From positions 37,701,797 through 37,765,796 of the forward strand of contig CP136061.1 of the NCBI GenBank assembly GCA_032622095.1: a DNA stretch of 64,000 nt, read 5' to 3'. Shown here in pieces: positions 16,818-47,246 of this stretch. This stretch comes from Siphonodentalium dalli (lineage: Eukaryota; Mollusca; Scaphopoda; Gadilida; Siphonodentaliidae). A model generated the notes under the pieces. The model had not been told where the DNA came from. It saw only the letters and a list, made by a program, of their open reading frames with translations, and made no database searches. The position numbers were made by a program, and so were the translations under genes. Numbering within the stretch: the first letter of the stretch is position 1; each line of letters opens with the position of its first letter.

Positions 16818-16821
16818 TTAA

Positions 16822-17150
16822 CCCTTTACCCAACAGAAGGGCCCTGTGCCAATGCATTCTCTTCGCATATATAAGAGAATGCATTGGCTTAACACATTAA
16901 AAATTATAAAATTGTTAAAGAATGTAAGAAAGGGCAATGCATTCTCTTATATATGCGAGGCGACCTATGGTCGACTCGCATATATAAGAGAATGAATTGG
17001 CACAGGGCATAACTGTAACCATCACAATGTGGTCAAGGAGCCGGTTCCAATGATATCCATATTTGTATGGTTCTATTGAGACAGACCGAAGATATTTTAG
17101 GCTGTTGAAGCTTTATTTGGCCGGTTTTGGCCGTTTTGTTGGGTAAAGGG
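16822..17150 (-). mobile_element. Composite miniature element A (TTAA family), reverse orientation
   Basis: It is flanked by TTAA at 16818-16821 and 17151-17154. Terminal inverted repeats are CCCTTTACCCAACA and its complement, the pattern expected for piggyBac-type elements. Inside are two long palindromes built on CCAATGCATTCTCTTATATA, separated by an AT-rich spacer. Its left palindrome has lost its centre. The unique 150-bp arm ('ccggttccaatgatatccat') lies on the right, so this copy is reversed relative to copies B, E and F. It has no coding capacity, so movement would depend on a transposase supplied elsewhere. Confidence 0.92.
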
Positions 17151-17154
17151 TTAA

Positions 17155-18676
17155 GCGTGTGGATATGAGACATTGTCGCCATTCGCCATGTTATCGCCAG
17201 TTATTATGGCAATTTACGGACCGGGAGTCCAGTACTGGTTGGATGTTCTTGTCAAACTATCTTTGTCTGACTCACTGAGATGGATACTACTGTTGTGAAA
17301 CTAGTATACACAGTTTGATGTACCACGCTATCAAATTTCATCGAATAATGTTGGACTATAGAAGAACGTTGTCATCACACAAAGTTATTATGTGCTTTGC
17401 TGTTGTCTTATAGGTTTCAATCCCAATTAGCTGTTCGAGTTACTGATATATTGTCGTAATGTACGCATCCACATGTTAAAACTGTGTTTTCAAATGACTG
17501 GACAATTTCACACCTTACATGTTACCAAAATATATGCCATTAAGATGTTTTAATTTTACATGTACATAAATTTGAGTTTTAACTGTGATACATATACCTT
17601 TCTTCCTGTATGTCTTAAAAGGGCATACCCGATTCATATGTTAGAATGGTCACAATTAGTATTGCTCGTAACTGAAGGATACATGTTGTATTATCGTTAT
17701 TTATTTACAGCCATAGTTATACAGTGGTCAGTGAAAAGTGAACACATCACATAGTGTTATTTTGTATTCAATCCCACGAGGCAGATCATCTTCAAACTTC
17801 AAAGTTTCATAAGTATTGTCTGACACATTAAGCATTGAGGATTTAAGTTTCATCAAAACTATGATCGTAATAGAAGAACTAAGATGTATTTTTCAGTTAT
17901 GAATAATACCAATTTCGACCATTCTAAAACATGAATCGTAATGGCTATCGAGAAATCATATTGTCGCCACGGGCTAATTCTACGGTAAATTACGACATTA
18001 AAAGCAAAAAATTGGTGGTGACCTATGAAGAATACTATTCGCCTGAGTCGTCTGACCGTTATTAGTTACGGTCTTGATATTAATTAAACGGTGTTGAACA
18101 GTAAAAATTACAACGGTCCGACTGTTACTGGTTACAGCCTGCCAGTTACTTAAAAAGTTTATTACCGTGTTTAACGGTCCAAGGTGGACAGCGGTGTTTC
18201 GCGGTATGACACCGTTATACAGCGACGGGCATATTTCTAACAGTGTAGATAATACTGGTGTATCAGGATTCCTATTTATTGGAGGGAAATACTCGCGAAT
18301 GAGTATTTAGTATCGAACAGGTGAAATACATATTCATTATTTAAATATTTCAATATGTTCTGGGATGTCTTATACAGATAACGGGTTTTCTTCGGTTCAT
18401 TCAGAATAGACAAAGGCTGTGCAAAAGACAACTTTAGAAAAAAATAACCATATGCTACTCATTTCTTAACAACATCGGTCTGCCCGTAACGATTTCACAG
18501 AAACTCAGCAAGACCTATAGGTCAACATGCCATCAAATTAACAGGATCACTCAGGTGTGTTATCTTATCCATTAAAATGGTCTATCTCTTCCCAGAATGC
18601 TTATATAGATTTAGGGATATACATGTAGCACAATAGATATGAATCGAGAACACCTATGCGGAAAAGTTTCTATCAA
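17155..18676. other. No gene recognised
   Basis: Presumed intronic sequence. Around 18040-18225 there are many 'acggt/accgtt' words ('gaccgttattagttacggtc', 'accgttatacagcg') that suggest a decayed palindromic repeat, but no copy elsewhere in the window supports it. Confidence 0.45.
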
Positions 18677-18680
18677 TTAA

Positions 18681-19071
18681 CCCTTTACCCAACAAACCGG
18701 CCAAAACCGGCCAAATAAAGCTTCAACAGCCTAAAATATCTTCGGTCTGTCTCAATAGAACCCTACAAATATGGATATCATTGGAACCGGCTCCTTGGCC
18801 ACATTGTGATAGTTACAGTTAGCCCTGTGCCAATGCATTCTCTTATATATGCGAGTCGACCATAGGTCGCCTCGCATATATAAGAGAATGCATTGGCCTA
18901 AAAAAAATCTTTTTTTAACACTTTTTACCATTTTTTCTTACATTCTTTAACAATTTTATAATTTTTAATGTGTTAAGCCAATGCATTCTCTTATATATGC
19001 GAGGCGACCAATGGTCGACTCGCATATATAAGATAATGCATTGGCACAGGGCCCTTCTGTTGGGTAAAGGG
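18681..19071 (+). mobile_element. Composite miniature element B (TTAA family)
   Basis: TTAA flanks lie at 18677-18680 and 19072-19075, with CCCTTTACCCAACA termini. The order is unique left arm (18695-18822), palindrome 18830-18896, AT-rich spacer, palindrome 18978-19044, right terminus. The two palindromes face each other and are bounded by CCCTGTGCC-like and GGCACAGGG sequences, so the whole core is also an inverted repeat. It is nearly identical to copy E. Confidence 0.94.
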
Positions 19072-19075
19072 TTAA

Positions 19076-19739
19076 CATAAATATTATTTAGAATTTCTTA
19101 TTACTTCCGCGGGACAGTTTTATGGACTATCTTTAGAACAGAAATCCTTGCGAAAAGATCGAAGAATCCCAAAACGGTATCAAGAAGGACAAATAATTAT
19201 GTCTTGGTAGCAGCCTCATTGCTGCCTCAATCACGACAACTTGTATTTCAAATGTTCAATTGTAGATGTACCACGAACTTACGATCGATATAAGCCACTT
19301 TATTGTGCCCTTTTAGACAAATACTATACACAGTCTTCAGTTCTATCTGTATTTTAATTACAAAATAGCTATCTGTAGTCTTAAAATCGGGATTTATAAA
19401 AATTATGTTGTTTTAATTTTGGTCCGGAAGAGCTAGATCATCTTTTAATACAACAACAGATTTTCCGCATTTTATGAGATCCACCAGGATCAATCAATGT
19501 GTCATTGTGGTCTCACAGATGTCTTCTAGATATCGGCTCTGACATCGCGGTGTCATTGTGGTTTAACCGATGCATCGCAGTCCGGTCGGTGTCTTCGCGA
19601 TTCAAACAGTCACCGCGGTGTCCTGTGCGTCGCGAAGCACCCGATGCATCGTGATTAATTATCATCGATGATATGTGGATCGCTATTCTCACTGTCTTCG
19701 ATATGTTATTGCGGTCTGACCGATACTCTCTATATTTTA
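19076..19739. other. Degenerate minisatellite upstream of the signal-peptide exon
   Basis: From about 19495 to 19660 imperfect words 'ggtgtcattgtggtttaacc' and 'gatgcatcgcagtccggtcg' repeat with periods of about 30 bp. The rest is unremarkable AT-rich sequence. Confidence 0.5.
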
Positions 19740-19747
19740 GTTATAAG

Positions 19748-19823
19748 ATGCTGAAGCAACTATTTATATCGACAGTCTGCATATTGCTATATGGTGGACT
19801 CGTCCAGGGCGACATACCTGTAG
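19748..19823 (+). CDS. Signal-peptide exon of secreted C-type lectin
   Basis: A polypyrimidine-AG acceptor ('ctctctatattttag') ends at 19740, and the exon starts TTATAAG then ATG at 19748. The encoded start MLKQLFISTVCILLYGGLVQG is a textbook signal peptide: a basic residue, a hydrophobic core, and small residues before the cleavage point, followed by DIPV. The donor is CTGTAG|GTAGGT with the intron starting at 19824, leaving one base of a split codon (phase 1). This is exactly the phase needed by the lectin-domain exon at 39888. Alternative donors exist a few bases downstream (GTACAA) and at 19879. The join across a 20-kb intron is inference from phase and protein logic. Confidence 0.65.
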
Positions 19824-20745
19824 GTAGGTACAACACGAGCGATGCGAGTTCGCATAGCGAACCGAACCGACAGGTTATACCATTTCATCAGTCACAAACA
19901 ACAAACAGCTCAATCAAAGATCAGACATACCGCCACAAAAATATTTAATAACGCCACATCATACATGTACTTGAGCTCGGGAACTTGACAGCGTATATAG
20001 TGAAAGTTACTTACCGGGACCAAGTAAGTAGCTGCGTGTGACTTCAAACATATTTAACATACACTGAGAGAAAGAACATTATTTTATGATAATGTTTAAT
20101 TAATTTTCATAATGAAATCAACTTTCAAAGGAAAACAACTGTTAATATTTTAAATTTAATCAAGAATCATTTGTAGGGTAGTTATACGCTTGTTGCCTGT
20201 TATATGCATGTCTATTTTGTATATATTTTATTTACTGTTAACTTATCTTCTACTTTATGTTATTTGCAATTGCCTTGCAGTGAACTATATTATTTTATAT
20301 TACAGCAACTATAATCATGAGAAGCAAATTCAATTAATGAGTATTTAGTATAGAAATTGTTAATATACCATATGGTGCGTTGGGTAAAATTGGTTTCTAT
20401 GGTATACATGTATATGTAATACTTGCATAATTGGAGATCTTGCTTGAAAAACAAACTTGACAATTACTGATATAAATGGCCTTCAATATCCTTTAATTTT
20501 AGAACAGAAGAAAACTGTTGTAAAATGACCTTGAATTCAATTATATATATATACCTTATCTGTGGGAACACATATATAAACGTGTAGTTTATACGCCATA
20601 GAAACGTAAACATATAGATAAGGAGATACAATTTAAAATAATTATAGATTATATATAAATGGTGTGAATCTTTAATTAATGTGGCAATATAATACACGTA
20701 AACGCGAGACCCAATAAACGGAAGGATGTGGCACTTTTTTCCTCA
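19824..20745. other. Intron sequence, no gene
   Basis: Very AT-rich, with no recognised repeats or domains. Short open frames near 20464-20697 are low-complexity and lysine/tyrosine-rich, as expected by chance. Confidence 0.5.
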
Positions 20746-20747
20746 TA

Positions 20748-21210
20748 TGTGACCCGCCATATCAAATCCAGTCGTAAGTCGGGATTTTTTTTACCATGTG
20801 CCAATGCATTCTCTTATATATGCGAGTCGACCATAGGGTCGCCTCGCATATATAAGAGAATGCATTGGCCTAACAATGTTTTACAATTTTAATAATTTGT
20901 TCTTGTATTCTTTAACAATTTTATAATTTCACTCATACAGAGCCCCAGACAAACATGAGCAGACGACACTCTTCTATATGCTTCTATATATGTGTGGGGC
21001 TCCCTGCAGGGTAATGGATGTTTTTTTATTTTATGTCCTAAAAATTGTAAGAAAAAATTATTTAAGAAAAAAAAATAAAACATTGTTAGGCCAATGCATT
21101 CTCTTATATATGCGAGGCGACCTATGGTCGACTCGCATATATAAGAGAATGCATTGGCACAGGGTAAAAAAAATCCCGACTTACGACTGGATTTGATATG
21201 GCGGGTCACA
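20748..21210 (+). mobile_element. Composite miniature element C (TA family)
   Basis: Inverted termini of about 48 bp begin TGTGACCCGCCATATCAAAT and continue 'gtcgtaagtcgggatttttt'. They are flanked by TA at 20746-20747 and 21211-21212, as for Tc1/mariner-type elements. Inside is the same core as in the TTAA family: palindromes at 20810-20876 and 21092-21158 with an AT-rich spacer that shares 'attctttaacaattttataa'. The spacer also holds an extra segment bounded by 'gagcccca' and 'tggggctc'. It has no coding capacity. Confidence 0.93.
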
Positions 21211-21340
21211 TATTATTTTAACATTCTGACTGGTCCTGAGACTGCCTTTAAAGTGTATGTATATGGTGTTCTGTATGTTCGTTAGATGACTTTGGAGCTT
21301 CTTTGATGAATGGAGCTTCCTAATTTTTTGCGAAAATACT

Positions 21341-21372
21341 GTGCCAATGCATTCTCTTATATATGTGAGTCG
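21341..21372 (+). repeat. Isolated half-arm of the composite-element core
   Basis: CTGTGCCAATGCATTCTCTT followed by 'atatatgtgagt' matches the outer arm of the shared palindromic core. It stands alone, without either terminal repeat family. It sits between 'gaaaatac' and 'gtattttc', an 8-base inverted pair. Confidence 0.75.
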
Positions 21373-21404
21373 CACATATAGGGTATTTTCACATTTTCAA
21401 CCGC

Positions 21405-21945
21405 TCGAGTGGTACCACCGTGGGTGAGGGTGGGGATGGGGGTGTTTCTGGGGTATGGGGTAATTGGGGCGGGCCACCCACCTATGCCGTCAAATTGGCC
21501 GAAATCCTAACATTTCTCGAAAATGGTCCACACCAATTTCGACCCCCTCGGGTGAGGGGTGTGATGTTTCTATTGGGTTTTTGGGGCGGGCCAAAAACCC
21601 ATGCCGTAAAATTGACCGAAAGAGAGGGTGGGGGTTCTATGGTGTATTTTGGTCGGGCCACCCACTCCTGTCGTCAAATTAGCCTAAATCCTTACCGTTA
21701 TCGAAAATGGCCAATACATAGTTCACCCCTTGGTGGTACCCCCCGCTGAGGGGTGTTGGCGTTTCTATTGGGTATTTGGGGAAGGCCACCCACCAAGACA
21801 TCAAATTCTCCGAAATCCTTACCGTTTACGAAAATGTTCCATACCCCATATTCACCCCCTCCAGGTGGTACCCCGGTTGAGGTGTGGTGTTTTTAGTGGG
21901 TATTTAGGGCGGGTCACCACCCATGCCGTCAAACTGACCAAAGAT
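21405..21945 (+). repeat. About 130-bp GGGCGGGCCACCCA tandem array, five units
   Basis: 'gggcgggccacccacctatg' type words recur near 21467, 21583, 21651, 21778 and 21908. Each is followed by 'ccgtcaaattggccgaaatc' and then 'cgaaaatggtcca'. One spacing (68 bp) reflects a deletion. A single diverged unit is at 60895-61040. Partial palindromes 'ggtggtaccc' mark unit joins. Confidence 0.85.
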
Positions 21946-22189
21946 ATATATTTGTGAATAAGTAATATGGAATAAGTTCCAAAAGTCATGTTCGTCCATG
22001 ATATTAGATAATAACTAGAGGTCAGATTCCATGGAATCAGATATACTTCCATGGTATTCCATCCCATCCCATGTGAGTGTTATGCGTATATGTGTGTTCC
22101 TCTTCATGCGAATGCATATTGGTGCCTTACGATCCGATGGTGGACTTGCATTGACATTTCTAAATTTAATATATATTTTGGGACTTCTG

Positions 22190-22575
22190 TCTGTCTGTTT
22201 GTTTGTCTGTTAGCTATGGCCGGGAAAACTGCTGGACGGATTTTGACGAAATTTGATCAGTGTGGGTACTTTTGTCCAGGGAGTGTTTTGGACGGGTCGA
22301 ATCGTGACCCCCGACCTGTCCTTGGCCTTCAAAAAGGTCAATCGAAGGTCAAATCGGGTAAAACAGACGGATTTCCACGAAATTTGATACCTAGGGTTAC
22401 TTTTGTCCGGGGAGTCTTTTCGGCGGGTCAAGTCGTGACTCCGACCTGACATTGACCTTCGACATGATAAGTTCAATGTCAAATCGGGTAAAACGAACGG
22501 ATTTCGACGAAATTTGATACCTAGGAAAACTTTTGCCCGGGGAGTGTTTTGGACAGGTCAAATCGTGACACTAGG
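22190..22575 (-). repeat. AAGGTCAAGGTCAGGTC tandem array, reverse orientation
   Basis: The same family as 456-680 and 38280-38690, read on the minus strand. Units of about 130 bp carry 'ctaggtatcaaatttcgt' and 'gtccaaaacactccc'. The outer end at 22190-22235 matches the outer end of the 38-kb array (complement of 'ggccatagctaacagacaaa'), so both arrays share one defined boundary. That argues for a mobile unit rather than a local satellite. Confidence 0.88.
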
Positions 22576-22849
22576 TTACCTTTATAGTAGAGCGGACATA
22601 CCTATATAGTATATCGATGAGCATATTCGTGCATTTGCCTTGCTTCTTGAAAAGGCCGTTTGAATTTGCGTCATGAAGAGAGGGTTTGAATTTGAGTAAT
22701 ATATATCACCCGTTACAACGTTATACTCTACCAGGGTTAAACCGTCCAATCTAAATCATTAAAAAGTGTAATAATCTTGCGTTAAGATACTACTTATCAC
22801 ATCCACTGATCGAAAAGTTTTTATCTCAATATCTGATTTTCGGAGTAAT

Positions 22850-23445
22850 TTTCCCCATTTGATCTTCGGTGGAATTTGCCAAATCTGAACTCACCGACAC
22901 AAACACTCCCTTGAGCAGGTTGCGTTTATATTAGAGAGGTCAAATTTTGGAGGGATACCTACAGTATACCGGCTTAAGTACCACCGCATTAAACTCGCTC
23001 CTTTATTAGCCTATTTAGATTTGGGGCTAAAAATAGGTTAGTGATAGACTACTTCAGTATACATATTTATGTTATATAGCGTTTTTACGAGTAAACCGTT
23101 GGTTCTGAAATTTAGAAAATCGCACTGTAGATGCGCGTGAACACTACCTATCAGATGTACTCGTAAAAAAAATTTATCTTGATGTTTGAATCCCCCCCCC
23201 CCTTTGCAATTTCGTGAAATTTTCCAAAAGTCCCAACCCACCCCGACTCGCATTCTCCGTTGGACAGGTTACTTTTAAATTATAGCGATCAAACTTTTGG
23301 CACGTACATACAGTATGTCAACGTACCTGCTGCGACATTATATTGTTCTTTAATTAGCCGGTTTGGATTTGGCGGGAAAATTAGTGCAATATTTACGTAC
23401 CTCGTAACGCGGAAAGTGCTGGGAAAAAACATTTTTAACCGGTAT
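22850..23445 (+). repeat. Two diverged tandem units of about 344 bp
   Basis: 22850-23090 and 23195-23440 align by eye. Examples are 'ctcccttgagcaggttgcgt' with 'ctccgttggacaggttactt', and 'ttagcctatttagatttggg' with 'ttagccggtttggatttggc'. The interval also holds a C9 run at 23192. No gene is seen. Confidence 0.6.
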
Positions 23446-23570
23446 ATTCGGGTCAGGATTACTCGTCCAATTCGGAATATGCGATAAAAAATTTAGAGCT
23501 CTGCAATTATATAAAAAAAATAAATAAAAAATAAAACCTCGGTTTATTCATTCTGGTGTAAAATGTGTCT

Positions 23571-24090
23571 CTATTTATGTGCGGTAACTCCTCAGGGAAA
23601 GCACGGACACAAGTTTTGATGCCCGTGGGCAGTAGGGCATATCGAGGTGTGCATACGGTCCAATTTTCGATGCTCTGCTCCTTATAATTTCCGAGATAAT
23701 AAAATGACATTTTTTCATATAAAGGGAGATAACTCCGCGGGGAAACGCGGACAATATTTGTTATATGAAAAAAAGTTAGAACTCATTAGCCCCAACATAC
23801 GTACCAACTTTTAGTTTGCTACTCCTCATACTTTCAGATATTAGGGCTTCGCAAAATCGTGGAGTATAATAATAATAATAATGAAAAATAATCGAAAAAG
23901 GGCCATAACTCTGTCTAGAAACTTTGGACCGGTATGCGGATACCTTTATTTGTAGTAGACCTTAGATGCCTACATTCGCTATAGATTTCGCGTTCCTACT
24001 GCAATTAGTTTCTGAGTATTTCAAAATAAACGGAAAACGACCTCAGTACAAAAACAATATACTTCCTTGGTTACACCATGGAAGTATAAT
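23571..24090 (+). repeat. 520-bp duplicated block, copy 1
   Basis: Almost identical to 25298-25817. I counted about three mismatches, so they are about 99% identical. It contains 'aaagggagataactcc', a motif abundant in molluscan genomes, and an (AAT)n tract near 23870. It ends in a 13-bp hairpin, TATACTTCCTTGG and CCATGGAAGTATA, at 24059-24089. Confidence 0.95.
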
Positions 24091-24099
24091 AATAGGGAA

Positions 24100-25165
24100 C
24101 ATCACGAGCTGAAATAATTGCAGTTTAGGGGCGGAAAATATGAATTAGGATGGTTATATGTTGTCCTAACATGTGTGGGTTGATCTCAAATGTGTGAAAG
24201 TGTCCCCACCCCTGCCGCGAAATTGGGTGACGGGATTGGGAAATTGTCAACAGTGGCCCAAACTGCGAAGTTTGAGGGCCTGTAACTCCGTTATTTTCCA
24301 ATGGATTTTAAAATTGTTTTTAGTTTTGTAATCTCCTACTTACCTAGATTGTATGTTATAAATGTCATCTGATTCGGAGACGAATAGCATTCTGTTTATT
24401 GGAAAAAATATGGGGCCAAATTAAAACTTTGAGGGCCCAAATCTCCGCCTTTTTTAACGGATTTACGATCTGTTTTCAGTTTTGTGTTCAACGTGTATGG
24501 TAGATGCTATATGCCAAGTTTCATATGATTCGGAGACGAAATAAATTTTGGTATTGTTGACCACCCCTCCCGTGACCCACAACACTAAACCGACACTGGC
24601 AAAATTTGGCACACCGCGTGCTCTCTTCAGCCTGCACGCATTGGCGTATCAGATGACATTCAAAGTTCGACATCTTCGGAGGAGATGTGTTATCAAGCAC
24701 ATGGGCCCAGACTTGCATATTTTGAAGGCCCGCAACTCTGTCAGTTTTTAATGGTTTTCGAAATTCTTTCAGTTTCTAGATCGGCTGTTGCTGTGGATGT
24801 TATATTCCAAGTTTCATCTGATTCGGAGGCGAATAATATTCTGGCACCATAAATCACCCCTCCCCAGAACCACAATAATGAACAGACACTGGCAAAATTT
24901 GGCACACACCGAGCACTAGTTATTCTGGATACTTAGAAGTGTGTCACTATCTCCAATGTTTGTCCGTTTTAAAGGAGATACGGCGACAAGCCGATTGCCC
25001 CAAAAATATAGTTTTTGAGGGGCCACAACTCTGGTATTTCTACTCAGATTTCAAAAATCTTTCGTAATATATGATTAGCTTTACGCAGTGAAGCCATACA
25101 CGTAGATAGGTGAATTTCGTAACGAATTTTTTTTTTAATTTGGCAACCCCCCACCCCATTGTAAA
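24100..25165 (+). repeat. Four diverged units with GATTCGGAGACGAAT
   Basis: 'tttgagggcc(tg/ca)taactcc' and 'aagtttcatctgattcggag' words recur near 24265-24385, 24425-24545, 24720-24840 and 25015-25130. Later units also hold 'cactggcaaaatttggcaca' (24593 and 24888). Spacing is irregular (150-300 bp). There is no coding sequence. Confidence 0.7.
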
Positions 25166-25297
25166 AATATGAGATCGACCCTGTCCAGTTTTCGTTTTGG
25201 CACTGAACAGTCAATGAACAAGAGGACTGTGAAAATCAAATTCAGTTATCTGGAATTATACGAGAGAACAGCTGAGTACAATGAATTCGAGGTTTGC

Positions 25298-25817
25298 CTA
25301 TTTATGTGCGGTAACTCCTCAGGGAAAGCGCGGACACAAGTTTTGATGCCCGTGGGCAGTAGGGCATATCGAGGTGTGCATACGGTCCAATTTTCGATGC
25401 TCTGCTCCTTATAATTTCCGAGATAATAAAATGACATTTTTTCATATAAAGGGAGATAACTCCTCGGGGAAACGCGGACAATATTTGTTATATGAAAAAA
25501 AGTTAGAACTCATTAGCCCCAACATACGTACCAACTTTTAGTTTGCTACTCCTCATACTTTCAGATATTAGGGCTTCGCAAAATCGTGGAGTATAATAAT
25601 AATAATAATGAAAAATAATCGAAAAAGGGCCATAACTCTGTCTAGAAACTTTGGACCGGTATGCGGATACCTTTATTTGTAGTAGACCTTAGATGCCTAC
25701 ATTCGCTAGAGATTTCGCGTTCCTACTGCAATTAGTTTCTGAGTATTTCAAAATAAACGGAAAACGACCTCAGTACAAAAACAATATACTTCCTTGGTTA
25801 CACCATGGAAGTATAAT
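25298..25817 (+). repeat. 520-bp duplicated block, copy 2
   Basis: Direct copy of 23571-24090, offset 1727 bp, about 99% identical. The junctions share no flanking homology beyond the block. No clear target duplication or terminal inverted repeat was found. Confidence 0.95.
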
Positions 25818-27047
25818 TAACCGCTATACAACAAACCGTGAATTCGTCGTGATTTATATCAGAGAGCAGTGAGCACAGGTTATTCACCTGATTAGGAGAT
25901 TAAATAGTGACAACCGGGCGCGTGACCCGACAATTCATTGACAATTAGCCATAATAAACAGACAGACCACGCCTCCTATCCTTGCAATTGAACAATTGTG
26001 GCCCACAGGTAATGCAATCGACCATGTCGTCCCCGCGGTCGAGTAAAACTTAGTTTTACGACTAAAGCCCACTTAAAACAAGAAAACCATAGTCAGAAAT
26101 GGTAACGCCACCAAGATTATAGTATTACATATAAATAGAAATTATAAAAAATACATAAAATATTTTGATAACAATTGCGTTTAAACAAGTAATCCTTCAA
26201 ATTATTACTAACAAAGCAAGTAAATGACTGTGGGGTCACTCAACAGATTATAAAGACTTGGACTTAGTATACTGTAAATACTGGGACTGTATATTTTTAA
26301 ATTTTAGTCTAAAATTTAAATGAAATAATTAAAAGATAAAATTTAGCAAGTAGTAAAAGTTAATTTTATCATTTAATTTATTTTTTTGGTTAAATAAAGG
26401 AATAATTTAAATGTAAAATTTGGTTTTAAAAAAAATGATTGACCGTGGCTCTTCCAATAATTACGCGACTGACCTGGTCAATTGTTCTTAAGAAGTTGTT
26501 TTGAGAATTACTATGGAGGGACATAGTTATGGCTGTGGCTTCGCGAGTAATTGACTTGGTGACGTGATGTTAACAATCTGAACTCCAGTAAACCAAGGAC
26601 GCTCCATACCAAATATAAGGTAAATAAATAATTCTTTATAAGTTGTTTTAATATTTACTATGGAGGGAAAGAATTGTGGTGCTGGCTTCGTAACTATTTG
26701 ACCCCATTGTAACAAATATAAATATTAGTCACTCAGGCAATAGATATGTATCTATTCTGTATATTAAGTTATTGGGTCTTACGTGTCTTGAGATGTCTAA
26801 ATATGTTTTGATGGACAGATCGCGCAAACGCAAGGGACCCCGCCAATCTTATTTGTTGTGCTTCCAATTGTTGACTTATTAAATATGCACATATACTTAA
26901 GAAACAGTCGCGTGCGAAGCGCGCTCCCGTAGGTCGGTTTTTGGATGCCAGTTAATGAAAATATCATTGAAATAATCGGTTTCCCCCCAATAAACATCCA
27001 TATATTCAATATACATGTTTTTGGAGCAGAATTAGGTAGACCATATT
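25818..27047. repeat. AT-rich interval with two diverged units of about 146 bp
   Basis: 'aagttgttttgagaattactatggaggga' type sequence at 26491 recurs near 26639, and both are followed by 'ggctgtggcttcg'-like words. The remainder is AT-rich with no recognised gene. Confidence 0.55.
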
Positions 27048-28480: not shown

Positions 28481-28559
28481 ATATGGACTCTGGTGCCAAT
28501 ATGGAACAGCTCAGAAAACATTTGAAGGGGCCTAAAATTTATTTAACATGGGATCTGCC

Positions 28560-36314: not shown

Positions 36315-36320
36315 ATTATA

Positions 36321-38060: not shown

Positions 38061-38279
38061 AACAAGTAGTTTAAACTAGAGGTCTAGCTAAACTGGAGAT
38101 GCCGATTCGGACCTCGGTAGTAGCTTCATAAAAAGGTCGGGGAAACTCTTTGTCTCTTACCATGCATTTAGGGACTTTGTGAATGATATACCAGGATTGC
38201 GTAACTTGTTTCGTTCGGGTTGAGATTTCGTCAGAGGTCCAGCTTTATTTTGCCAGTTCAACCAAACTATATATATACT

Positions 38280-38690
38280 AGCTGGTGAATTGACCATTTT
38301 GAAGGTCAAGGTCAGGTCGAGGTCACGATTTGACCCGTCAAAAACACTCCAAGGACAAAAGTACCCGTGGGTATCAAATTTCGTCGAAATCCGTCAGTTT
38401 TATCCGATTTGACCTTGAATTGACCTTTTTGAAGGTCAGATCGGGGTAACGATTTGACCCGTCCAAAAGACAAAAGTATCTGTAGGTATCAAATTTCGTC
38501 GAAATCCGTCCCGTTTTACCCGATTTGACCTTGAATTGACCTTTTTGAAGGTCAAGGTCAGGTCGGAGTCACGATTTGACCCGTCCAAAACACTCCCTGG
38601 AGAAAAGTAACCCTAGGTATCAAATTTCGTCAAAATCCGTCCGGCAGTTTTCCCGGCCATAGCTAACAGACAAACAACAAACAAACAGAC
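38280..38690 (+). repeat. AAGGTCAAGGTCAGGTC tandem array, forward orientation, three units
   Basis: Units begin at 38302, 38432 and 38548. The array ends in 'ttttcccggccatagctaac' and a CAAACAAACAGACAG run, the same outer end as the inverted array at 22190. The minus-strand frame across this end is repeat-derived. Confidence 0.9.
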
Positions 38691-38854
38691 AGAAGTCCCA
38701 AAATATATAGTAGATACATATATATAAATATACACAAATATAAATAAAATAGCCTTCATGTTGACGGAAGTAAATACTGATTCGTGCGACTCATGTGCGT
38801 GACGTGGTGCCAAACCAATACGCCAATCGCGATCACAGTTTACCCGTGTGATTA

Positions 38855-38928
38855 AGGATTTCCTTAATCACGCCTCTCTTTAAAATGTTTTGTTCGGTAA
38901 TCGGGCTACACACGATTGGTCGTGTGTG
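38855..38928. repeat. Two short perfect hairpins
   Basis: GTGATTAAGGA-tt-TCCTTAATCAC at 38855-38878 has 11-base arms and a two-base loop. CACACGA-ttgg-TCGTGTG lies at about 38911-38928. Function is unknown. Confidence 0.7.
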
Positions 38929-39244
38929 TGAAATTGAGGAAATCTACAGTTTTCTGAAATGCTCAAGGGTGAGAACTCCACACCCACATATAAATTGATG
39001 TACACACCACCCAGAATCACAATCCGTAGAGAAAAAAACTTTAACATAGAATTTCTACTTCACACTTGTCACTGTACAGCACATGTTTAAAAAAAAAAAG
39101 CTAAATACATTGCGAAGTAGTTGTAGTTGTTTTCCCGGTGAGCTCTGGTCAGTCACCATGAAATTTGTTGATTCATCTTAATCTCGATGGGCTTAGAGGG
39201 GGCTGAATTGGTCATTATAGCATGGTTTCGTTCAAAAAGATACC

Positions 39245-39460
39245 CATGATATATCTCAAACGTGCAAAAAGACACACAGGTTATCTCACGCGTGCAAAAA
39301 GGCTTCCATGTTCTCTCACACGTGCAAAAAGACACCCAGGTTATTTCACACGTGCAAAAAGACACCCATGTTCTCTCACACGTGCAAAAAGACACCCATG
39401 TTCTCTCACACGTGCAAAAAGACACTCAGGTTCTCTCACACGTGCAAACATACCCACAGG
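39245..39460 (+). repeat. 30-bp minisatellite with CACGTG E-boxes, seven units
   Basis: Units of the type CACGTGCAAAAAGACACCCA followed by 'tgttctctca' repeat with a 30-bp period. Five carry the exact E-box CACGTG. Because the period is a multiple of three, both strands show long open frames with ten-residue repeats; I read these as by-products. It lies about 430 bp upstream of the lectin-domain exon at 39888. Confidence 0.93.
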
Positions 39461-39599
39461 ACCTCGTTCGTCCGGGACTGTTAAACTCAACGTGGTGGAA
39501 TATCAATTCAATACCCCCTGACATTTCACTCTAAAATGACAAACATATAATTATTATGCATAATAATTAACAATGACTATTTTAAAACGATTTTTTAAA

Positions 39600-39705
39600 A
39601 TGAGATTGTGATATGCTGGGTGACTTTGTGCACATTTTGTGAGATCCTGGTGGCTGTTTGCTCGTTTAGCAGATCGTGGGTGTCTTTTAGCACGAAACCT
39701 TGCGA
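39600..39705 (-). repeat. Three degenerate inverted units of the 30-bp minisatellite
   Basis: 'gatcgtgggtgtcttttagc' and 'gatcctggtggctgtttgct' resemble the complement of the 39245-39460 unit. The pair of arrays could form an imperfect cruciform of about 100 bp arms. Confidence 0.6.
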
Positions 39706-39887
39706 CATTAACCTATTTTTAAGCCTTAATGGGTCCCCCCAGTGTTGAGTGATTTACTTACCACACACCCTTTAGATACTGTAGTATCACTTTCTGGTGG
39801 TTGGTCTTCTGTTGTTGTTTTCAATCACAAAACGAATTGGATACGTACCATTATAGTATGATTATACTATTGTGTTCTGTTTTTCAG

Positions 39888-40064
39888 CCGCAAATTGCAT
39901 TGGGAACCACAGAGTTTGGCTAGATACTACCTTAATCTGTGTTTATGCCAGCATAGACAGAAGGAGCCACGCTAGTGCTGTCCGGCGATGTAGACGGATA
40001 GATGGACAACTCCTTAGAATCACCAGTACGACCATGTTGCGTGACCTTAGAGGGAAACTGATGC
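39888..40064 (+). CDS. C-type lectin domain, N-terminal half exon
   Basis: The acceptor 'ttctgtttttcag' ends at 39887 and the donor GTAAGT starts at 40065. The exon is 177 bp with phase 1 at both ends. It encodes 'ANCIGNHRVWLD', 'CVYA', 'SHASAVRRCRRIDGQLLRI' and 'MLRDLRGKLM'. These match the first half of a long-form C-type lectin domain: a Cys pair in the N-terminal hairpin, the first helix with Ala and Cys, then G-x-L-x-x-I. This exon supplies cysteines 1-3 of six. The product would be a secreted lectin of about 155 residues when joined to 19748-19823 and 42301-42515. Such proteins usually act in recognition of glycans or microbes, but this is not shown here. Confidence 0.85.
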
Positions 40065-40119
40065 GTAAGTGCCCCTATTTTCTGAGACACATGTGATGCT
40101 CACATAATACATATGATCA

Positions 40120-40262
40120 GCATTGTCACCAGCATCTTCCCAATGGACATCACCGTCATCATTATCAAAATCAAATGCAATGCCGGCCGCCATTGCCATC
40201 GTCATCATCATAATTGCCACCACAATGTCCATCATCATCATCATCATCACCATCATAGTAAA
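40120..40262. repeat. Imperfect (CAT)n/(ATC)n tract
   Basis: ATC/CAT trinucleotides become almost pure at 40227-40256. The tract sits in the intron directly after the lectin exon donor. Open frames rich in His, Ile or Met here are microsatellite artefacts. Confidence 0.9.
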
Positions 40263-40399
40263 GTCACTTGCACCGCCAACACAGCTAACGAAGTCCCCAA
40301 GACTCCGTCACGTTCTGCAGCGGGAAAGCGCGAACGGCGACCACATAGACCGCCTGTAGTGAACAAACGGCCATATGTAAGAACTGGCTGCCAATAATA

Positions 40400-40853
40400 T
40401 GTGACCCCGCCATATCAAATTCAAGTCGTAAGTCGGGATTTTTTTTACCCTGTGCCATGCATTCTCTTATATGTGCGAGTCGACCATAGGTCGCCTCGCA
40501 TATATAAGAGAATGCATTGGCCTAACAATTTTTTACAATTTTAATAATTTGTTCTTGTATTCTTTAACAATTTTTTAATTTCACCCATATAGAGCCCCAG
40601 ACAAACATGAGCAGACGACACTCTTCTATATATGTGTGGGGCCCCCTGCAGGGTAATGTATGTTTTTTATTTTATGTCCTAAAAATTGTAAGAAACATTT
40701 ATTTAAAAAAAATGATAAAATATTGTTAGGCCAATGCATTCTCTTATATATGCGAGGCGACCTATGAGTCGACGACTCGCATATATAAGAGAATGCATTG
40801 GCACAGGGTAAAAAAATCCCGACTTACGACTGGATTTGATATGGCGGGTCACA
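40400..40853 (+). mobile_element. Composite miniature element D (TA family)
   Basis: TA flanks lie at 40398-40399 and 40854-40855. The ends are TGTGACC(C)CGCCATATC and its complement. The layout is the same as element C: palindrome, spacer with 'gagccccagacaaacatgag', palindrome. It sits in the lectin gene's last intron. Small indels in the palindrome centres ('gagtcgacgactcg') distinguish it from copy C. Confidence 0.93.
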
Positions 40854-41016
40854 TATAACCTCATCCATATCATATCATAGACAACATCCTGTGAGAAATT
40901 TCCTCGGGGGAAATGAAATAAACAGCTATACAATCCTGCAGCGTTTTGGAAGTTTCGACACGAAGCCACCAAACAAACTTCTAAACTACCTAATGTAACT
41001 AGGAGGATGTTTTTAA

Positions 41017-41408
41017 CCCTTTACCCAACAAACCGGCCAAAACCGGCCAAATAAAGCTTCAACAGCCTAAAATATCTTCGGTCTGTCTCAATAGAACCAT
41101 ACAAATATGGATATCATTGGAACCGGCTCCTTGACCACATTGTGATAGTTACAGTTATGCCCTGTGCCAATGCATTCTCTTATATATGCGAGTCGACCAG
41201 AGGTCGCCTCGCATATATAAGAGAATGCATTGGCCTAAAAAACATCTTTTTTTAACACTTTTTACCATTTTTTCTTACATTCTTTAACAATTTTATAATT
41301 TTTAATGTGTTAAGCCAATGCATTCTCTTATATATGCGAGGCGACCTATGGTCGACTCGCATATATAAGAGAATGCATTGGCACAGGGCCCTTCTGTTGG
41401 GTAAAGGG
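41017..41408 (+). mobile_element. Composite miniature element E (TTAA family)
   Basis: TTAA flanks lie at 41013-41016 and 41409-41412, with CCCTTTACCCAACA ends. It is nearly identical to copy B over its whole length, including the unique left arm 'ccggccaaataaagcttcaa'. It lies only 160 bp from element D. Confidence 0.94.
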
Positions 41409-41604
41409 TTAATGCCGCGCCTCCAACCTTTCGCGCACCAAACTGGACTGTCACTTTGACATCCATCCATGTAGAATGTAACCATGAACCAAACTGGGTT
41501 TCGGCCTATACATGGCTTGTAACTACAAGGGCGATTACCAGCCCGAAAACATTATTTTGATTATTGGAATTAACTGATCATAACGACCGCAGCGAACCTC
41601 ACCC

Positions 41605-41725
41605 ATCCATGTACAGTAATGCCCTAAATAATCGACTCATTAACCACAGCAGAATTATGGGTAACTTTTCAGGATTAAGTCGGAAATACGGCCTGTTGCC
41701 ATTCATCGGAAAGCATTACTGTAAC
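41605..41725. repeat. Fragment of the 27-kb nested palindrome unit
   Basis: 'cagtaatgcc', 'ttaaccacagcagaattatg' and 'ggtaacttttcagg' occur in the order seen at 27141-27215. Only one arm-palindrome segment is present. Confidence 0.75.
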
Positions 41726-42009
41726 TACAATTTTGAGCACAATCAATAAAGCATTGCCCAAAGCGCAAATTTATTTCACGCAGCTCAACTTTTCCAAGGA
41801 ACTTCGGCCAGACCACTGTGTAGAGACTGTTACACCGGAAATCATTCTACTGCTGGTTTGTGATGGTTCAGTGATGATTTTTTTTATTGGATAAATTTTA
41901 CAACACATTGGTTGAAATTGTACTCATTTTTTGATTCTCCTACCAATAATGAGTGGGGAATATGTGATTTTTGTCTGAATAGCTGTCAGTTACATTTTCA
42001 AACCTTAGA

Positions 42010-42110
42010 TAGGAAATTTCCAACAGCTGGAAATTTTGAGGTACCATGCAGTTGGAAAGTCCCAAAACCAACCACAACGGAGACCTTCTGATCACGTCCC
42101 TGTAGTTGTG
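42010..42110. repeat. GGAAATTTCCAAC repeat fragment
   Basis: 'ggaaatttccaacagctgga' and 'acggagaccttctgatcacg' match the family at 34060-34400. GGAAATTTCC fits the loose consensus for NF-kB/Rel sites; in this copy it lies about 280 bp upstream of the last lectin exon. Confidence 0.6.
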
Positions 42111-42300
42111 CCCCTATCTGACATGTTCAACGTGCGGATTTTGGAAGTTAGCTGTTTATGATAAACAAAAATGATGTCTAGGTCACCTATATTATGTAAA
42201 TTTTTGCCTGGACTAATAGACATTGAACATCGCGTGTCCTGCTCCGGATGCTGCGCAGGTCGCCATACAGTTCAGTTCATTCTTTGTTTCTCGTTTGCAG

Positions 42301-42515
42301 CCACTCAGTTCTGGATAGACGGGAGTGACGCTGTTCAGGAGGGTCACTGGGTTCTCTCTGATGGGAGTGACATGTTGGAGGAATGGGGCCCCAGAATGCC
42401 GACGGGAGGGACCGCCTATAACTGTGCTTACATCTACGGCCGGGATAACGAGTTCTACAGCGAGCCTTGTGGATCTTCCGTCCGTTACATCTGCGAACTC
42501 CATACAATCACTTAG
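42301..42515 (+). CDS. C-type lectin domain, C-terminal half exon with stop
   Basis: The acceptor 'tctttgtttctcgtttgcag' ends at 42300. The exon enters in phase 1, matching the preceding exon, and ends at TAG 42513-42515. It encodes 'FWIDGSDAVQEGHWVLSDGS', 'EEWGPRMPTGG', 'NCAYIYG', 'EPCGSSVRYICE': the WIGL-like motif, the G-x-W-x-x-SDG strand, and cysteines 4-6 of a long-form domain. The EPN or QPD tripeptide and the WND motif that bind calcium and sugar are not present (PTGG and FYS stand at those places). Calcium-dependent sugar binding of the classical type is therefore unlikely. No clear AATAAA follows. Confidence 0.88.
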
Positions 42516-42703
42516 TGTAAACACATTTGCATTTCCAATTTCAAACAAATGATATAATATACAAATGACATACATTCAAAATAGAAGTGATAATATATGG
42601 AAACGGAGATCAGACAACAATCCCTAGGGCTTAAGTCAAGTCTGCCCCAGGTATGCAATATGGTAGTGTATATAGAAAACATGTACACCAAGAACCGGTA
42701 CCA

Positions 42704-43102
42704 GTACCAGTCAAAAGAAGTGGTATATTAAGCGCGCTATTTTCGCGCCCATTATTGCAATAATAATATAATTGGAAAAGGTTATAAGGGCGCCGCTTGC
42801 GATATTATTGCAATATTTTGCGCTTAATATCGCAATATTTGGCGCTTAATATTGCGATATCGCGCGCTTAAAATTGTGATAGTTAAAGCAAAGTATTGCT
42901 TCGTCTCTATTGTTTATTGCATAAATATAGAGACAATGGTTAGATTTGTATATAATTATAGTTGTAAATGGTCAATATCGCAATAATAAGCGCGACAAAT
43001 TTTTTTGGTATTGCGCTATAATCGCGCCTTTTTCGAAATTAAGCACGCTCAATATATCGCAAAAAGGCGCGCCTCGATATACCACTTCTTCTGACTCGTA
43101 CC
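42704..43102. mobile_element. About 400-bp terminal inverted repeat element with AATATTGCG/GCGC motifs
   Basis: The left end 'gtaccagtcaaaagaagtgg' pairs with the right end complement (43083-43102 reads 'cacttcttctgactcgtacc'). The arms continue for about 45 bp into 'tatatt..gcgcgc'. The interior is filled with 'cgcaatatt', 'ggcgcttaatat' and 'gcgcgctt' words in both orientations. It lies 190 bp after the lectin stop codon. No target duplication is certain. Confidence 0.8.
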
Positions 43103-43104
43103 TT

Positions 43105-43918
43105 AGCTGAGACACGCAACAAGGCAGTTCTGGAAGTTAACATCCAAAACAAGGCTGGGCGATTAACACTAAGTGCATCGATGCTAACATCCAAAAACAA
43201 GACTGGAGCGATTAACACTAAATGCACCGATGGAGTTTCTGGTGAAAATGAAATAACTGACATGTGGATGCTCACTTTAAAAGCACACATGTGTAATCGG
43301 TTAATACAACAGACGGAAAGCACCTGTAGAACCGAGTCCGTTCATAAGCCTATACAATGACATTCAGATATATAGCGGACGATGACGTGAGGCAAGCTAT
43401 TCAGAATATAGTGTCGGGTAAAGCGTGTGGTTCAGATGGTGTAACATGAGATCATTTGAAATATGTCGGTGATACTCTCTGTATATATTTAAGCGTTCTT
43501 CTCAACTCGATTTACGTGCACTGGCATCTACCAAGTATGATGCTGGAAGTAATCATTGTTTCGTTGCTTAAAGCAAGTCTGATGATGTTGGCAGAAAAGA
43601 AAACTACCGCCCGATATCAACGGCGAACATAATTGCCAGAGTGGTTGAAATAATTATGTTCAGTAAATTTGAGGAACTTCTGACGGTTTCAAGAAAAACA
43701 TTCGACTGACTCATGTATATTCACACTTATATAAGAAACCATATACGGTACTATCGTTCACTCCATTTTATCTCAACGCAAGCAAGGCTTTCGATCGGGT
43801 CAATCACGATCGGGTCAATCACGACACTCTAATTCCACCCTCGAGAGTAGGGGGTATCAATGATGACTAATCGTTTGCTGCAAAACTGTTTTAGAGAGCA
43901 GACATTTAGGTTGCTGGT
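43105..43918 (+). pseudogene. Non-LTR reverse transcriptase pseudogene, 5' part
   Basis: Broken frames read 'DGVSGENEITDMW' (about 43228), 'GKACGSDGV' (about 43423), 'NYRPIS' with 'FEELL' (about 43600-43680), and 'ASKAFDRVNHD' (about 43785). These are the linker and RT motifs 1-3 in correct order. In-frame stops and shifts are present. A 56-bp direct duplication ('taacatccaaaa..aagactgg') at 43138-43245 adds to the damage. The gene continues after two insertions at 46722-46789 and 47247-47560. The clade is not determined. Confidence 0.85.
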
Positions 43919-44690
43919 CTCACAGCACAGGAGCTTGGAATTTGGTCAAAATCCCTCTTTTATTGGCAGAACCACCACCCGGGACCATAGGTCACGGAAG
44001 GAACGAAACACGAATTTGTTGCCACCCATTTTGAACTCAACTGTATTCCTACAAAAAATATATTTTCACTAAAAACTTTTGGTACCTCTTACACCTTAGA
44101 TGCCAATCTACAACATTCCATAGGTATATTTTTCCAGTTCTTCGAAAACCTCACTTTATTTCGGTAATGTATTGTAAATTCACCAACGAACACAAATCTG
44201 CGACACCTCCATCATCCGTTGTAGAATCTGAATGACAAATGGCACAAAACCATTTTTCCGGAATAACAAAGTCGGAACGAAATAAAATCGAAACCTAATT
44301 TAAAGCCCGCGAAATTCAAAAATATTTGAAAGTGCGTGCGGTTTTCGAACTTAGGCGCCAGAAAACTTAAATCAGTTTATGTTTGCGTCATACTATGCTC
44401 GTTTTTGAAGATCTAATCCTGATGTTTTGTGCATTTTCCTGAAAATTTCTGTATTTTTCTGTGTCTGCTGTTATCATCTCATGAAAATGACGACTACCCA
44501 AGAAGATATTCTTCATTTGACTGAATGGTAATTTGTACAAATATTTCATATATAATTTATTTCTATTTATGGCACGACCACGTGGTATTGTTTTTTTCTT
44601 CTTGTTTTATGTTCGTTATGTACCGGTAGGCCTATATGTACTACTTGACTTTGTAATGCTACTGGATGCAATTATTGGTCATAAGGGGAC

Positions 44691-44797
<107 letters not shown>

Positions 44798-45146
44798 AAC
44801 TAGTTTATAAATTTGTGTTAGTGATAAACTCGCTAACATAAATTTTATGTAATGAGCAACTATAAGTATTGTTAACTGCACCGGTACCAGGATCTATAAA
44901 TAGTATACGTCACTCCGACTCACTCGTGACTCGCGTGTCGTAACGAATCAGCACCAAAACTCTTAAAGAATGGCTTTATGCATATGATTATATAGCCTGT
45001 GCTCATGAATTGGAAATTCAATTTTTAAATTCAAGACAGCTAGCCACCATCGGCATTGTTTTTCTCAAAATCAAAAATACCAAAACAATATTAAAAACAT
45101 TACTTAATGTAACTTTCGCTGATGGGGTCATTGTCACAAGGCTCCG

Positions 45147-45267
45147 CGATCCGATCACATTCGTAGCCAGGTTTTTTAATCGATCACAAATGTAGCCAGC
45201 TTTTCTATGGCGATCACATTCGTAGCCAGCTTTTCTATGGCGATCACATTCGTAGCCAGCTTTTCAT
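45147..45267 (+). repeat. 30-bp minisatellite, four units
   Basis: 'gcgatcacattcgtagccag' followed by 'cttttctatg' repeats with a 30-bp period. The first two units are diverged. On the minus strand it gives ten-residue repeats within a chance frame. Confidence 0.9.
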
Positions 45268-45289
45268 ATTCAGGCGAGCCCCAATGAAT

Positions 45290-45405
45290 AGTGCTGGGCG
45301 ATATGACGATATATCGGGTATATCCGGTTTTAATTTTGATATCGTCAATAATATCGTCTAAAATAAAAATATCGTAATACCGTCCCAAGTTATAATATTC
45401 TCCAT
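45290..45405. repeat. Segment rich in ATATCG words with GTGCTGGGCGATAT start
   Basis: 'gtgctgggcgatatgacgat' and repeated 'atatcg' and 'cgatat' words resemble the ends of some hAT-type miniature elements in animals. The comparison is from general knowledge and there is no second copy here, so the assignment is weak. Confidence 0.35.
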
Positions 45406-45445
45406 CATATGGTCCCAACAAACAGGGAAGTTAGAGCAAGTATAA

Positions 45446-45915
45446 ATGTATAATAGTCCCAAACTTCCCGGAAATACGCGGTCGAAAAAGTTAAAAAAAA
45501 CATCGGAGCACGTGCTTGTCAAGTTGGATATGCTTCGTCGGAAACATCAAAGCGCTAGCATTAGTTGGCGACGTTGTGAGATGATTGGTATGTCGCGCGT
45601 ATGCGACTGGCACAATGACCTCCTTTCAAGTTGGTGCAGCTTGCTCTATCAACCGTAACCGGTTGCTTGGAGGCGGATTACGATGTCAGATTTTTATTGA
45701 CCAAACTAGCTGATCGTGTCAATGTGTGCAAATTGCGAGTAAAATTATTTTGTGGACATGTGCCGTACGGATCATGGCATCACTATCACTTCAACGAACG
45801 TCAAATTCACAAACTAATTGAACATGTCTATATTTATTTTCCTCGGCTAAAAAATGCTGACGCAAATTCATTTCGCGTCGGCTTTTGCCTCGACACTGCC
45901 CATTGTCGATGCTAA
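45446..45915 (+). CDS. Two overlapping unrecognised frames inside the 2.8-kb element
   Basis: Frames 45446-45658 (70 aa) and 45631-45915 (94 aa) are in different registers. The first has a Lys/Arg-rich start and a Trp/Cys-containing end. The second has 'GHVPYGSWHHYHFNERQIHK', with several His and Cys residues. I recognise no transposase catalytic motif. They may be remnants of one gene broken by a frameshift, or chance. Confidence 0.2.
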
Positions 45916-46721
45916 TTCCCAGGGCTGCCGTATACTATGTGCATTGAAGTCTCACGGTGCTACCAACTACCAATTACCACTAATAAATAGTCTCACAAAT
46001 GACCAATTCCTCATGAATAAATAAAATGGAAATTTGAAACCGAATGTGGTCCTTAATGTGTGGTGTTGAGCGCTATTGTCGAAGGGATATAACTGTAAAC
46101 AATTATGCGAAAATGCACGTGGGCCTTGTTATATGATTATATCCCTTTATTTCAAAGTTATTGTTTTCTCTGTCGGCAAACTGTCAGCGGCCATGTTTTT
46201 ATGCAAATGAGCCCAAAATGATTCGTTCCCATCTAGACGCCAATGTTATCATCCATCAAAAAGTTCATGATGATCAGTGCATCGGTACGGTCATGTAATA
46301 AACATGTAATCAGCAGCTATGTTCGAAATTATAAACGGTACTTTCATGCTATCCGTCTCCGGATCATAGTTTTAAAGTTTCCGCATATTTCGGTACCATT
46401 TCCGCTACTCAGATTCTACAACGGATGATGGAGGTGTCGCAGATTTGTGTTCGTTGGTGAATTTACAATACATTACCGAAATAAAGTGAGGTTTTCGAAG
46501 AACTGGAAAAATATACCTATGGAATGTTGTAGATTGGCATCTAAGGTGTAAGAGGTACCACAAGTTTTTAGTGAAAATATATTTTTTGTAGGAATACAGT
46601 TGAGTTCAAAATGGGTGGCAACAAATTCGTGTTTCGTTCCTTCCGTGACCTATGGTCCCGGGTGGTGGTTCTGCCAATAAAAGAGGGATTTTGACCAAAT
46701 TCCAAGCTCCTGTGCTCACAG

Positions 46722-46789
46722 TATCTCATCATGTTTTGTTTTGACACGTGGTGTGATGCAAGAAAGTATTATCATCCCTCTTTATTTAA
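46722..46789 (+). pseudogene. Reverse transcriptase pseudogene, middle fragment
   Basis: This short piece between the two insertions reads 'DARKYYHPSLFNVY' across the TTAA insertion point, corresponding to the RT segment G-x-L-S-P-x-L-F-N-x-Y. The codons for Phe-Asn contain the TTAA where element F inserted. Confidence 0.75.
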
Positions 46790-47242
46790 CCCTTTACCCA
46801 ACAAAACGGCCAAAAACGCCCAAATAAAGCTTCAACAGCCTAAAATATCTTCGGTCTGTCGCAATAACACAAAATGGATATCATTGGAACCGGTTCATTG
46901 CCCACATTGTGATGGTTACAGTTATGCCCTGTGCCAATGCATTCTCTTATATATGTGAGTCGACCATAGGTCGCCTCGCATATATAAGAGAATGCATTGG
47001 CCTAAAAAAATTCTTTTTTTTTAACACTTTTTACCATTTTTTCTTTCATTCTTTAACAATTTTATAATTTTTTCTTACATTTTTTAACAATTTTTATAAT
47101 ATTTTTCTACATTCTTTGACAATTTTATCATTTTTAATATGTGTTAAGCCAATGCATTTTCTTATATATGCGAGGCGACCTATGGTCGACTCGCATATAT
47201 AAGAGAATGCATTGGCACAGGGCCGTTCTGTTGGGTAAAGGG
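46790..47242 (+). mobile_element. Composite miniature element F (TTAA family), inserted in the RT pseudogene
   Basis: TTAA flanks lie at 46786-46789 and 47243-47246, with CCCTTTACCCAACA ends. The left arm and both palindromes are as in B and E. The spacer is longer because the 'ttcttacattctttaacaat' type word is repeated three times (47039-47130). The host frame (Leu-Phe-Asn-Val-Tyr) is restored when the element and one TTAA are removed, which directly supports the TTAA target site. Confidence 0.95.
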
Positions 47243-47246
47243 TTAA

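Follow-up and report, generated by a model that had tools for sequence, protein, structure and literature searches.

Introduction

Miniature inverted-repeat transposable elements (MITEs) are usually classified by their ends, with the interior regarded as filler. Ordinary MITEs have their ends in common with an autonomous relative and differ from it in the interior. In the scaphopod Siphonodentalium dalli we found this pattern reversed, in elements whose interior is shared and whose ends differ. They were studied in a stretch of 64,000 nucleotides, referred to as the window (C1:37701797-37765796; contig CP136061.1 of assembly GCA_032622095.1), and throughout the genome (2,226,750,531 bases, 9 contigs). 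The shared interior, here called the core, is a pair of facing palindromes. At a probability that we put at about 0.5, this palindrome cassette was carried in turn into at least four families with unrelated ends, each of which then multiplied from a founder holding the core.

Composite DNA transposons are already known. Charlie is a hAT element. In chicken, the deleted mariner Galluhop lies inside Charlie, and the passages of PMC4992247 on this chimera describe its amplification by Charlie-mediated transposition. It is thus a guest within a host that was then amplified, as proposed here. However, Charlie-Galluhop as presented in those passages joins one guest to one host, whereas here one guest core is found with at least four arm types, and its guest is mariner-derived, whereas ours is a pair of palindromes for which no autonomous source is known. 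Tetris of Drosophila virilis is described, in the parts of PMC4079207 devoted to it, as a modular non-autonomous foldback element with inverted repeats and with internal tandem repeats that can give rise to satellite-like arrays. According to the same parts, it shares the final portions of its ends with the MITE DAIBAM. Its arrays are resembled by tandem palindrome arrays of 97-base units at two of our loci (L008 and L009). In Tetris and DAIBAM, on that account, the final portions of the ends are shared; in our elements it is the interior that is common to the families, and the ends are not. The relevant passages of PMC9587614 attribute TTAA target sites and a composite-like architecture to KolobokP elements of molluscs and other animals, and RR..YY termini, unlike those of piggyBac, to Kolobok. 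Our TTAA elements are similar to KolobokP in target site and composite-like build, but in the elements read we observed no long direct repeats at the termini.

Among the matches listed in searches of the open-access literature by sequence words and concepts, no paper describes an internal core common to several families whose ends are unrelated, or one core in four arm types. Four longer sequence words were absent from the papers among the matches listed (20 of 40). The sequence words sought were also absent from PMC5556988, and the passages of PMC12368964 deal with inversions.

Results

The core and its carriers in the window

Inside the arm families F1 and F2 the core has the order CCCTGTG - P - spacer - P reversed - CACAGGG. 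P is a near-perfect palindrome of 67 bases with an ATA loop and one T/C mismatch retained in the consensus, which is the same 67 bases in F1, F2 and F3. As single-stranded DNA, P was predicted to form a hairpin of -38.7 kcal/mol (z = -15). The two arms of the core are inverted copies, and with this predicted folding they correspond to the long inverted repeats, able to fold back, of foldback elements. The window holds the following carriers:

16822..17150, minus strand: element A (F1), TTAA on both sides; P at 16934-17000, second palindrome 28 bases shorter
18681..19071, plus strand: element B (F1), TTAA on both sides; P1 at 18830-18896, P2 at 18978-19044
20748..21210, plus strand: element C (F2), TA on both sides; P1 at 20801-20868, P2 at 21091-21157, extra inner domain at 20940-21011
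21301..21383, plus strand: F4 remnant (the "stray half-arm"), left arm and half palindrome, from alignment to the F4 left arm and P
40400..40853, plus strand: element D (F2), TA on both sides; P1 at ~40453-40520, P2 at 40731-40801 with a changed loop
41017..41408, plus strand: element E (F1), TTAA on both sides; P1 at 41167-41233, P2 at 41315-41381
46790..47242, plus strand: element F (F1), TTAA on both sides; P1 at 46934-47000, P2 at 47149-47215

The 20-mer CCAATGCATTCTCTTATATA had 24 matches in the window with up to three mismatches, against 0.05 expected. Elements A, B, E and F carry CCCTTTACCCAACA at both termini (as the reverse complement at the far end) with TTAA outside, and the termini of C and D are TGTGACCCGCC, flanked by TA, the start of F2 being TGTGACCC. 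An extra C at the left end of D leaves three exact copies of the 16-mer TGTGACCCGCC, not four. In all six elements the facing palindromes are bounded by CCCTGTGCC and GGCACAGGG; one palindrome of A has lost 28 of its 67 bases, and C and D each have one left edge base changed or missing. The spacer of element F contains ~3.7 copies of a 31-base repeat.

Spacers are also related across families. The consensus spacers of F1 and F2 are identical at 46 of 53 places, with 0 of 1000 nulls as good, and those of F2 and F3 differ at 2 of 45 aligned places (also 0 of 1000). Chance similarity of AT-rich spacers was therefore rejected for these two pairs, and it is unlikely for F1 and F3 (1 of 1000 nulls as good). 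The F4 spacer showed no clear likeness to the others (33 of 1000 nulls at best).

A sequence-only reading of the window had described six elements, A to F, with these ends and target sites, with the same facing-palindrome interior in two families and with a partly shared AT spacer. All six elements are real, the interior is present in each, and the sharing of the spacer holds. Two families proved an undercount, as at least four were found, and the half-arm said to stand alone at 21341 has an F4 left flank, with 71 of 81 aligned bases identical and one 2-base gap.

Two other identities of the core were rejected. A known RNA family was one, the window giving no Rfam match at gathering score. A protein-coding core was the other: a frame of 106 aa over element C had no homologue at E <= 1.

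Arm families with unrelated ends

F1 is lopsided: its long arm has ~143 bases and ends in GTTATG, its short arm has 20 bases and ends in AGAA(C/G)GG. F2 has two matching arms of ~46 bases each. F3 reads TTAA-CCCTTT(G/C)AGTGCCAGGTCCGATTTTTGTATCAACCCATATA-CCCTGTG, followed by a single P, part of the spacer and a different far end. The two sides of F4 are TTAA-CCCTTTCATGACTGGAGCTTCCTGAAATTTTGCGAAAA-CCCTGTG and CCCTTTCATGACGGGAGCTGCGCTGGTGCAGCATTAAAGA-(C/T)CCTGTG. Comparison of arms across families revealed no similarity except CCCTTT after TTAA, and the ends of F2 have nothing in common with those of the other families. On this ground, the reading of the families as edge variants of a single one was rejected. 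The sole cross-family pair below 5% of nulls, F4 left against the flank of an armless locus on the reverse strand (19 of 500), was one of many comparisons.

MITEs of the piggyBac type have TTAA target sites and CCC ends, the termini of the piggyBac superfamily start with CC, and mariner-type MITEs have TA target sites. TTAA lay on both sides of 10 of 10 two-ended F1 copies (with one extra T in the left end at L031). For F3 it was found on the left in 9 of 9 and on the right in 8 of 9, and for F4 on the left in 4 of 8 and on the right in 8 of 8. The TTAA target duplication of the piggyBac superfamily is thus seen in F1, F3 and F4. Their ends start with CCCTTT, in agreement with the CC start of piggyBac and not with the 5'-RR...YY-3' that PMC9587614, in its passages on termini, gives for Kolobok. 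In F2, 11 of the 15 copies read have TA immediately before the left end (7 of 7 in one tally of ends, plus element D, L051, L053 and L079), and 9 of 9 have it after the right end. The four left ends without it were L052 (TG) and L059, L062 and L080 (TT; L059 and L062 have the same flank). The setting of the F2 end is palindromic (ATAT), so TA may also be part of the terminus. F1, F3 and F4 thus resemble piggyBac-type MITEs, and F2, with mostly TA, may resemble mariner-type ones; piggyBac-like and mariner-like are putative labels, given from target sites and end letters.

In every context read, the flank changes at CCCTGTG, within a base or two. This applies to seven flank types: F1 long, F1 short, F2, F3, F4 left, F4 right and an armless locus. 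TA lies outside CCCTGTG in F2, F3 and the armless locus.

Genome-wide abundance

The 29-base key CCCTGTGCCAATGCATTCTCTTATATATG, which marks the edge of P, was counted as an exact pattern in the whole genome and had 67,281 + 66,839 = 134,120 copies, while its reversed control had none. One intact two-palindrome core contains two keys. Families were labelled genome-wide by words of four or five bases just outside the key: TATG for the F1 long arm (37,490), AASGG for the F1 short arm (39,243), TTTA for F2 (21,948) and TATA for F3 (15,519). These four junction words assign 114,200 of the 134,120 keys (85%) to F1, F2 or F3. For the other 19,920, the flanks read suggest F2 variants (such as TTTGTA and TTCTTA), other arm variants and F4. 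One exact 22-mer searched in each of IMG/VR and the GTDB contigs found no copies.

Samples comprised 20 systematic 10-kb stretches, thirty 3-kb loci at the first 30 of 100 listed keys (L001-L030) and the flanks of 30 more listed key sites in 27 short loci (L054-L080). Flanks were read at 80 key sites: 30 in L001-L030, 30 in L054-L080, 13 in L031-L050 and 7 in the window. An F1 to F4 arm was present at 78 of them (F1 30, F2 13, F3 30, F4 5), and the other 2 were armless. These shares are not random: tandem duplicates in L001-L030 inflate F3, and the sites of L054-L080 were picked from 70 further listed places, most of those labelled F2 or paired at F1 spacing being left out. The 13 key sites of the systematic stretches alone gave F2 6, F1 5, F3 1 and F4 1. 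One key site unlabelled in one tally is F2 by the arm rule and was taken as L038, an arm with a deletion. A match to the F2 end at L049:3893 was a chance match and was dropped. Duplicated or overlapping loci (L002, L003, L009, L011-L013, L015, L016 and L018-L026) were left out of several counts.

Large tandem arrays were observed in two regions. Ten key sites at C1:820017-920851 are mostly 11,175 bases apart (L017-L026), and four at C1:735739-779407 are ~14,555 bases apart.

None of the 80 flank-read sites was a clearly free core. The armless locus L029 and its likely segmental duplicate L056, whose flanks are identical over 80 bases, have no recognised arms, TA on the left and no second palindrome. 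Three key sites at C1 ~0.961-0.970 Mb recur in the same order ~132 kb on, at 1.094-1.102 Mb, a likely segmental duplication. The inner F2 domain at 20940-21011 of the window contains ACATGAGCAGACGACACT and GGGGCTCCCT, and the same domain occurs in the armless core L029. At L072, an F1 copy, the two palindromes are merged into one P with CCCTGTG on both sides.

Copies without the core

Core-less copies were sought in the whole genome with exact inner arm words of both arms at a gap of up to 30 bases, a test that misses diverged copies. For F2 it found three places (L051-L053), two of which keep pieces of core or spacer, while the third has lost part of the arm too. All seven F1 places hold core pieces (CCCTGT in six, ACCATAGG of the loop in one). 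All of the F1 and F2 hits, or close to all, derive from cored copies by deletion. A core-less relative of F3, with an F3 arm at both ends, was seen at L005:1972-2151, in a locus chosen for holding P.

At least one half of P is kept in 10 of 10 two-ended copies of F1, 5 of 5 of F2, 8 of 8 of F4 (two overlapping) and 8 of 9 of F3, a tally that includes L001-L030, loci selected because they hold P. Restricted to the window and the systematic stretches, these counts become 6 of 6, 5 of 5, 5 of 5 and 2 of 2, respectively. The near-absence of core-less F1 and F2 indicates that the core was in place before these families multiplied; the F3 arm exists without it. A founder that already held the core probably gave rise to each family, and at present P likely moves almost only as a passenger.

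F4 as a carrier

Ten F4 palindromes differ from each other at ~10 of 67 bases; the corresponding values for F1 short-arm, F2 and F3 copies are 1.0-1.8. F1 long-arm distances were not used, as some F4 array units fell under the F1 long arm. The F4 loop is CTCCC-ATA-GGGAG against CGACC-ATA-GGTCG in young P, a paired change at two places. P of the young type lies within F4 arms at L006 and L068, and the left inner stretch of L006 aligns to the F1 spacer with 50 matches, 6 mismatches and 2 gaps (0 of 500 nulls). Given their greater divergence, F4 is the oldest carrier seen. It may have been the donor of the core, with a direction of F4 first and then F1 to F3. At L008 and L009, head-to-tail arrays of P lie beside F4 arms, possibly a satellite in formation.

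Neighbouring features

A C-type lectin exon lies at window positions 42171-42515 (Lectin_C, E 9e-8), ~0.8 kb from element E. At ~43924-46716, a 2.8-kb element has 308-base inverted repeats, 100% complementary, and CTCACAG on both flanks. An open frame of 1268 aa at 8187-11993 has endonuclease and reverse transcriptase domains of a LINE-type (long interspersed nuclear element) retrotransposon; its zf-RVT match was just below the cut-off.

Discussion

By the most likely route, the core was once a mobile unit ending at CCCTGTG, because the flanks change there in seven flank types. The cassette, a passenger with sharp boundaries, would have been handed on from family to family, and after entry each family would have multiplied from its cored founder. 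The boundary between arm and core was presumably made by an enzyme, and today the core would travel only within elements that are mobilised as a whole by the transposases of their arms.

The sequence-only reading had taken the core for a mobile foldback element that entered two host elements, each then multiplying as a composite. Its single sharp outer boundary holds in the contexts read, and multiplication with the core inside is supported; the hosts number at least four. It had named termini that are edge variants of one family as the finding that would speak against this idea, and the outer arms are unrelated. Of the cores with other termini or none that it proposed to look for, the former were found with F3 and F4 arms, and the latter are limited to L029 and its likely duplicate, with none clear among the 80 sites. 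Core-less ancestors were not found for F1 or F2 with exact words and a gap of up to 30 bases, and one core-less relative was seen for F3.

Several observations weigh against carriage of a cassette. TA does not lie outside CCCTGTG in F1 or F4, and some F4 right arms have TCCTGTG, an edge inexact to the base. The inner boundary is not constant, because F3 holds one palindrome and part of the spacer. No copy had a clean target duplication around the core alone, and no active free core was seen. The missing core-less F1 and F2 fit a cored founder, and leave no ancestor for comparison. The arms of L005 read CCCATAA and CCCATAT before diverging, where cored F3 has CCCATATA, so L005 is not an exact empty site. 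At L006, the right inner stretch has no match to the F1 spacer, with 46 of 500 nulls doing equally well.

P might instead be exchanged between families by gene conversion or template switching, with extruded hairpins breaking and being repaired from ~100,000 other copies. We consider this improbable, though not to the extent of the other two alternatives weighed here. It would keep P alike between families and occasionally swap flanks, and several copies have indeed lost part of a palindrome. Between the F1 and F2 consensus, P does not differ (0 of 67) while spacers differ at 7 of 53 places (against 0 of 134 for P, Fisher p = 0.0001). Within families, rates were compared in copies outside L001-L030, which had been selected by the exact key, and without F3, in which one core-less copy and partial copies were mixed in. 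In six F1 copies not chosen by key, P changed less than the arms (8 of 776 against 26 of 971, p = 0.014) but not less than the spacer (6 of 451, p = 0.78). In seven F2 copies it changed less than the spacer (14 of 884 against 44 of 1494, p = 0.039), and the excess was absent against the arms (17 of 619, p = 0.14). This lower but uneven change allows conversion or constraint and proves neither. Conversion also predicts boundaries inside P, whereas the observed change of flank lies 7 bases outside it, at CCCTGTG.

A function of P in cis, for example as a hairpin that binds a transposase or enhances transposition, such that only its holders multiply, would account for the stable predicted hairpin and for the P half kept in every two-ended copy of the window and systematic stretches. 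It would also fit the pairing of P (31 pairs, 91.7% of cells paired), in which complementarity was held through sequence change in 18 cells altered on both sides against 6.2 when shuffled (21 sequences), a count that is inflated by the kinship of the copies and is not a probability. However, damaged P is common, and the TTAA families F1, F3 and F4 should use different transposases from the mostly-TA F2, so that one shared binding site is unlikely. We therefore regard such a function as rather remote. We give the same small chance to a core that stayed put while the elements swapped ends, neighbouring or nested MITEs moving as hybrids of an old core and new arms. The common TTAA-CCCTTT start of F1, F3 and F4 is in line with it, as is clustering: all P halves of the 200-kb sample (up to 5 mismatches) lie in 8 of the 20 systematic stretches. 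Hybrid ends should nevertheless give arbitrary junctions, not CCCTGTG in seven flank types, and the F2 ends share nothing with the other families. With recombination inside the palindromes the joints should fall within P, and with chance end-swaps they should be scattered, which favours carriage of a cassette.

A more far-reaching form of the cassette reading, in which the core is a transposon parasite, is tentative and on balance doubtful, though less so than the alternatives above. The palindrome cassette, with its own ends CCCTGTG and present in at least four unrelated MITE families, would spread by means of its hosts' transposases, bridging ends and target sites of two kinds or more, with almost no free copies.

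With a constant inside and exchangeable ends, repeat libraries based on ends and those based on cores would each misclassify these elements. The ~134,000 exact edges in one genome are material for testing transfer against conversion. If the cassette reading is true, a non-coding module persists by changing its transposon hosts, a testable case of selfishness above the level of the single transposon.

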